Positions 14,778 to 15,019 of a DNA stretch of 33,412 bases are shown in pieces (position 1 is the stretch's first letter; each line of letters opens with the position of its first letter). The notes beneath the pieces were generated by a model. The model saw only the letters and a list, made by a program, of their open reading frames with translations, had not been told where the DNA came from and made no database searches. Origin of the DNA: a bacterium (GTDB lineage: Bacteria; Patescibacteriota; Minisyncoccia; UBA11713; 2-01-FULL-45-33); NCBI GenBank assembly GCA_030648495.1, contig JAUSHV010000037.1, forward strand, positions 1 to 33,412, in the 5' to 3' direction. A program made the position numbers and the translations under genes.

Positions 14778-14807
14778 TTGCATGGTGAACGCTTGTTCAC
14801 CTATAAT
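14778..14807 (+). promoter_or_regulatory. Promoter TTGCAT-N18-TATAAT with SOS-type operator GGTGAACGCTTGTTCACC filling the spacer
   Basis: -35 14778-14783, perfect 7-bp inverted repeat with 4-nt centre at 14784-14801, -10 14802-14807; core GAAC-N4-GTTC matches the Bacillus-type LexA/DinR box. Confidence 0.85.
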
Positions 14808-14813
14808 TAATTT

Positions 14814-15017
14814 ATGACCAAATATCAAACTTTTAAAACGATTCGCGAAGAGATTGAAAGGCTGAACCACGAGATAGATCTCAAGATAATCCTAGGCCGG
14901 CCATATATGGTGGAGTCTAGGCGGCACAAAATGCTTTTAGCGAGGTTTGAGAGGCTTGCTCCAGGGCGAGCATGGTTCAAACGCTCCATGAACATAATGG
15001 CCTCGTTAGTTTTATAA
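14814..15017 (+). CDS. Small hypothetical protein, first gene of the lexA operon
   Basis: 67 aa ORF starting 6 nt after the -10; stop 2 nt before the lexA ATG. Confidence 0.65.
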   Translation: MTKYQTFKTIREEIERLNHEIDLKIILGRPYMVESRRHKMLLARFERLAPGRAWFKRSMNIMASLVL

Positions 15018-15019
15018 TT

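Follow-up and report, generated by a model that had tools for sequence, protein, structure and literature searches.

Positions 14778-14807 of the window, the whole 33,412-nucleotide stretch of DNA that was analysed, very probably form the promoter through which LexA controls its own SOS operon in a Paceibacteria species with a reduced genome. This agrees with the original prediction of an autoregulated SOS switch, which is now supported by a second copy of the operator at dinB, by 62 related loci in which the arrangement is conserved, and by the family assignment and catalytic residues of the encoded LexA (Table 1).

Table 1 Features of the lexA operon, the second operator and the LexA-methyltransferase fusions
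Feature	Position	Strand	Sequence or basis
-35 element	14778-14783	+	TTGCAT; sequence read; weak
LexA operator (predicted)	14784-14801		GGTGAAC-GCTT-GTTCACC, GGTGAACGCTTGTTCACC; sequence, genome scan and conservation
-10 element	14802-14807	+	TATAAT; sequence read and locus comparison
67-aa basic protein ORF, first operon gene	14814-15017	+	predicted leaderless start; conserved family
lexA, 189 aa	15020-15589	+	winged-helix N-terminus, Ala75-Gly76 cleavage site, Ser111/Lys148 dyad
Second operator, dinB promoter	G000:C3:23902		TTGTCA-[17 nt]-TATAAT-6 nt-ATG; genome pattern search
LexA-methyltransferase fusions	L030 1453-3024; L031 1489-3348; L034 1465-2886; L039 1285-2679; L047 1435-3009; L048 1456-3315		
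LexA-methyltransferase fusions	L032 529-2088; L036 571-2091; L037 532-2091; L052 655-2088	-	

Direct reading of the segment confirmed that a palindrome, with perfect 7-bp arms around a 4-nt centre, takes up 18 of the 18 spacer bases between TTGCAT and TATAAT. The -35 hexamer matches the TTGACA consensus at three of six positions, and because of this weakness a consensus promoter scan requiring four of six did not list the promoter; the same hexamer recurs at the same position in three of the compared loci (L058, L064 and L082). The -10 element is followed by TAATTT and then by the ATG at 14814. The originally described 6-nt distance to a start codon was thus correct, but the gene that begins there, which the original prediction had missed, is an ORF of 67 amino acids rather than lexA, whose start lies two bases after the stop of that ORF. 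The expected +1, the seventh base past the -10 hexamer, coincides with the A of the ATG, so that the transcript of the lexA operon would be leaderless, provided that this promoter is used. A second promoter-like match in the window (14989-15019; TGAACA-18-TATAAT, 10 of 12 positions) ends one base 5′ of the lexA ATG, which leaves too little room for an ordinary leaderless start. Leaderless transcription seems common in this genome, to judge from the spacing of promoter elements across the window: a good -10 hexamer lies 6-7 nt before the start of 8 of 35 window ORFs, compared with about 2% of all ATGs (examples at 558 (-), 10967, 12930, 15641, 18988, 21314 (-) and 26127).

The operon encodes a protein that by its sequence is a true LexA. 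The NCBIfam lexA equivalog model TIGR00498 matches over its full length with 130.9 bits against a cut-off of 110.95, and the S24 peptidase domain PF00717 is recognized with an E value of 1.2e-28. A75-G76, S111 and K148 align with LexA structures and are invariant in six orthologues, upholding the claim of a downstream LexA with an intact Ala-Gly cleavage site and Ser/Lys dyad. The winged-helix DNA-binding domain PF01726 scores 17.9 bits at the expected place, under its cut-off of 23.7, and is similarly weak in six of six orthologues.

The bare core of the palindrome carries little information. At least one copy of GAAC-N4-GTTC appeared in 31 of 100 shuffled versions of the window, showing no excess there, and a pattern search of the 824-kb genome with the reversed motif as control returned 13 copies of each. 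We therefore rejected the bare core as evidence of an operator, and a comparison across genomes was needed to decide. For the extended form, GTGAAC-N4-GTTCAC, the genome has two copies, and none of its reversed control. These two good operators, the only ones found, lie in the promoters of the lexA operon and of dinB, the gene for DNA polymerase IV; both fill the spacer, and both are followed by 6 nt between the -10 element and the start codon. The original prediction had proposed scanning for further copies 5′ of repair genes, and dinB, with its matching geometry, is the one other repair gene at which the scan found an operator. Sites with two or three mismatches, of which the genome has seven, were not supported as additional operators, since the control was no lower and the one two-mismatch site falls inside a coding frame.

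Comparison with relatives decides in favour of an operator. Among the 57 genomes compared first, the palindrome was present in the lexA operon promoter of five of five LexA orthologues with at least 56% identity, and in none of the more distant S24 matches that were fetched. We then assembled 87 non-redundant loci, mostly from Paceibacteria, by searching GTDB species genomes and 387 genomes of the class for LexA at E < 1e-60 and dropping duplicates. The exact core lies near lexA in 69 of these loci, and in 62 it sits at the centre of a spacer of 17 or 18 nt, which it fills; 18 of the 87 have no exact core near lexA, some carrying one-mismatch versions and others none. Across the 62 loci, the distance from the -10 element to the first ATG is bimodal, with 25 at 5-8 nt (17 of them at exactly 6) and the rest mostly at 15 nt or more. 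Near relatives are labelled as Taylor-, Nomura-, Zambryski- and Kaiserbacteria, and the layout is shared by relatives labelled as Nitrospirota, Omnitrophota and Betaproteobacteria, in which the flanks differ (for example, TTGACA-ACAGAACGCTCGTTCTT-TACGAT). A related LexA is encoded by 54 of the 387 class genomes, and GTGAAC-N4-GTTCAC is present in 29 of these 54 compared with 7 of the 333 others (odds ratio 54, p = 2e-22, a value that overstates independence because the genomes are related). Given this kinship, the conserved geometry is a stronger argument than the co-occurrence p-value.

Most of the sites in genomes without a related lexA look incidental, with no promoter in register. In one such genome (G002), the palindrome lies 5′ of a C5 DNA methyltransferase-like gene (L217, site 1876), and in G001 it lies 5′ of a 565-aa frame (L218, site 2174); neither has a clear in-register promoter. 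In a tree of lexA, the window protein falls within a clade of 31 rows, all 31 of which have the small ORF. Deep forks of this tree are weakly supported, and we therefore make no claim as to transfer or loss of lexA.

The genome encodes recA once, with no operator; in the 600 bp upstream of it, the closest match differs at five positions. The predicted regulon, consisting of the lexA operon and a translesion polymerase, accordingly looks minimal and narrower than the classical SOS regulon. Polymerases recur as partners in relatives, some of which have operators at polymerase genes elsewhere in the genome: a Y-family polymerase gene stands under an operator-bearing promoter with its start codon 6 nt past TATAAT in G293, as do Y-family polymerase, BRO-N domain and uncharacterised genes in G249. 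The uncharacterised gene of G249 (L222 3727-4833) lies within 4 kb of lexA, and its promoter both bears the operator and has the leaderless spacing; the 369-aa product begins with a hydrophobic stretch and had no match in Pfam or NCBIfam.

Such a narrow regulon raises the alternative that the operator is real but the protein acts as a dedicated regulator of a mutagenic polymerase module instead of a general SOS repressor, a reading that differs from ours in the breadth of the regulon. Precedents are HdiR (Streptococcaceae) and UmuDAb (Acinetobacter); both are S24 repressors that regulate their own expression together with that of Y-family polymerases (PMC8565304). Restriction of the good operators to the lexA operon and dinB, with recA left out, fits this alternative, as do a polymerase gene directly or closely 3′ of lexA in 34 of the 87 loci and an S24 part whose score on the UmuD subfamily model is good but stays under the cut-off. 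However, HdiR and UmuDAb are described as LexA-like or as UmuD variants and not as LexA (PMC8565304), whereas the protein studied here scores above the cut-off of the lexA equivalog, and in its DNA-binding part it aligns with LexA and not with phage-type HTH domains. We consider a dedicated polymerase regulator rather unlikely.

The 67-aa ORF belongs to a family of which we collected 35 diverse members. All are strongly basic, with net charges from +5 to +11, and N18, I21, I25, Y31 and H38 are invariant. About 35 loci keep the gene next to lexA, and 25 of the 27 class genomes (out of 387) that encode it also encode a related lexA. Partners in the lexA operon are nearly mutually exclusive, with the small protein only in 33 of the 87 loci, a polymerase only in 31, both in 3 and neither in 20. 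It is very improbable that this ORF is non-coding and merely forms a leader on the lexA mRNA, with lexA simply far from its promoter. In most loci it separates lexA from the promoter, and here its stop codon is followed after 2 bases by the start of lexA; both would suit a leader, but its conservation is at the protein level, it lies 3′ of lexA in L138, L141, L156, L159 and L170, and in G111 and G130 it is divergent beside a different S24 repressor (L255 2003-3046 and L256 349-1391). No GAAC-N4-GTTC palindrome was found between the two divergent genes in either of these genomes, where the same small effector is possibly under another operator.

Searches of Pfam, NCBIfam and PADLOC returned no family match for the small protein. 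AlphaFold2 models it as a helical hairpin (mean pLDDT 82) in which the C-terminal helix is predicted poorly, and the best match of this model in a fold search against the PDB was not significant (E = 0.98). The idea that its C-terminus forms an amphipathic membrane helix was not supported, the mean helical moment being no better than that of shuffled tails. We tentatively raise the possibility that this basic helical hairpin, which ends in a short hydrophobic tail, is a new effector of the DNA-damage response: it would be produced only once LexA has been inactivated, and would halt division for a time or alter replication. Small proteins encoded beside lexA and induced in the SOS response include the division inhibitors YneA, SosA and DivS; the 67-aa protein, whose induction is predicted here from the operator, differs from them in that neither its sequence nor its fold matched a known family. 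If the proposal is true, the protein would play the part of SulA/YneA in reduced-genome bacteria while being unrelated to either.

It is hardly credible that the inverted repeat arose by chance beside an ordinary promoter and that lexA is controlled in some other way, as the chance-level counts of the bare core and the weak -35 would allow, given that sequence and exact position are kept in 62 lexA loci and reappear at dinB.

We thus favour the autoregulated LexA promoter, for which LexA binding, self-cleavage and induction are proposed from established knowledge of the LexA/RecA pathway. In an undamaged cell, a LexA dimer on the palindrome would cover the entire -35/-10 spacer, excluding RNA polymerase from the operon of the small protein and lexA and from the dinB promoter. 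Upon DNA damage, RecA loaded on single-stranded DNA would stimulate self-cleavage of LexA at Ala75-Gly76, and both promoters would open, giving leaderless transcripts that begin with the first base of the start codon, an A. The output would be mainly translesion synthesis by DinB, together with more LexA to reset the switch and the 67-aa effector. Points against this explanation are the weak -35, the sub-threshold PF01726 score, the lack of an operator at recA and the 18 of 87 loci without an exact core. As the arrangement recurs in dozens of relatives, it is almost certainly a working and largely ordinary SOS switch.

Much of the arrangement has counterparts elsewhere. The supposed match to the Gram-positive (DinR/Cheo) SOS box holds for the GAAC-N4-GTTC core and fails at the outer bases, which read TGAACN4GTTCA here and CGAACN4GTTCG in Bacillus subtilis and Staphylococcus aureus (PMC9578287). 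The present system shares with those of Bacillus and Staphylococcus the core, a LexA repressor, autoregulation (here predicted) and polymerase targets, and differs in its GTG...CAC rather than C...G flanks, in an operator that fills the spacer of one promoter and in a regulon that seems much smaller and leaves out recA. An SOS box inside a promoter spacer is an already known arrangement: in the Escherichia coli recA promoter, TTGATA-CTGTATGAGCATACAG-TATAAT, found 5′ of recA in 5,399 of 5,426 genomes, the LexA box also lies exactly between -35 and -10, although that box is CTGT-N8-ACAG, the gene is recA and the transcript has a leader. Within the same broad bacterial group, a LexA network and a LexA-controlled SOS response in Patescibacteria were reportedly described by Sanchez-Osuna, Barbe and Erill in 2017 (doi 10.1111/1462-2920.13826, as cited in PMC7739468), and the operator motif may already have been described in that work.

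A separate observation concerns full LexA-like repressors of Paceibacteria, with PF01726 and S24 both above cut-off, that carry a DNA methyltransferase as a C-terminal fusion (Table 1). The methyltransferase is of the C5 type in L030 and L047 and of the N6/N4 type in the other eight. One fusion used as a query had matches in 46 of 191 class genomes, some covering the LexA part only or short frames. Self-cleavage would split the DNA-binding part from the methyltransferase, and these fusions could constitute a modification system that responds to damage. No paper obviously describing them turned up in a full-text literature search.

Whether the SOS response is kept or lost is a live choice in reduced genomes, with about one in seven of the sampled class genomes encoding a related LexA. 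Here the response appears to retain lexA, one translesion polymerase and a small protein. With a promoter geometry this strict, the regulon can be predicted from sequence in mostly unculturable organisms, and the geometry also points to one conserved small protein as a candidate damage effector.
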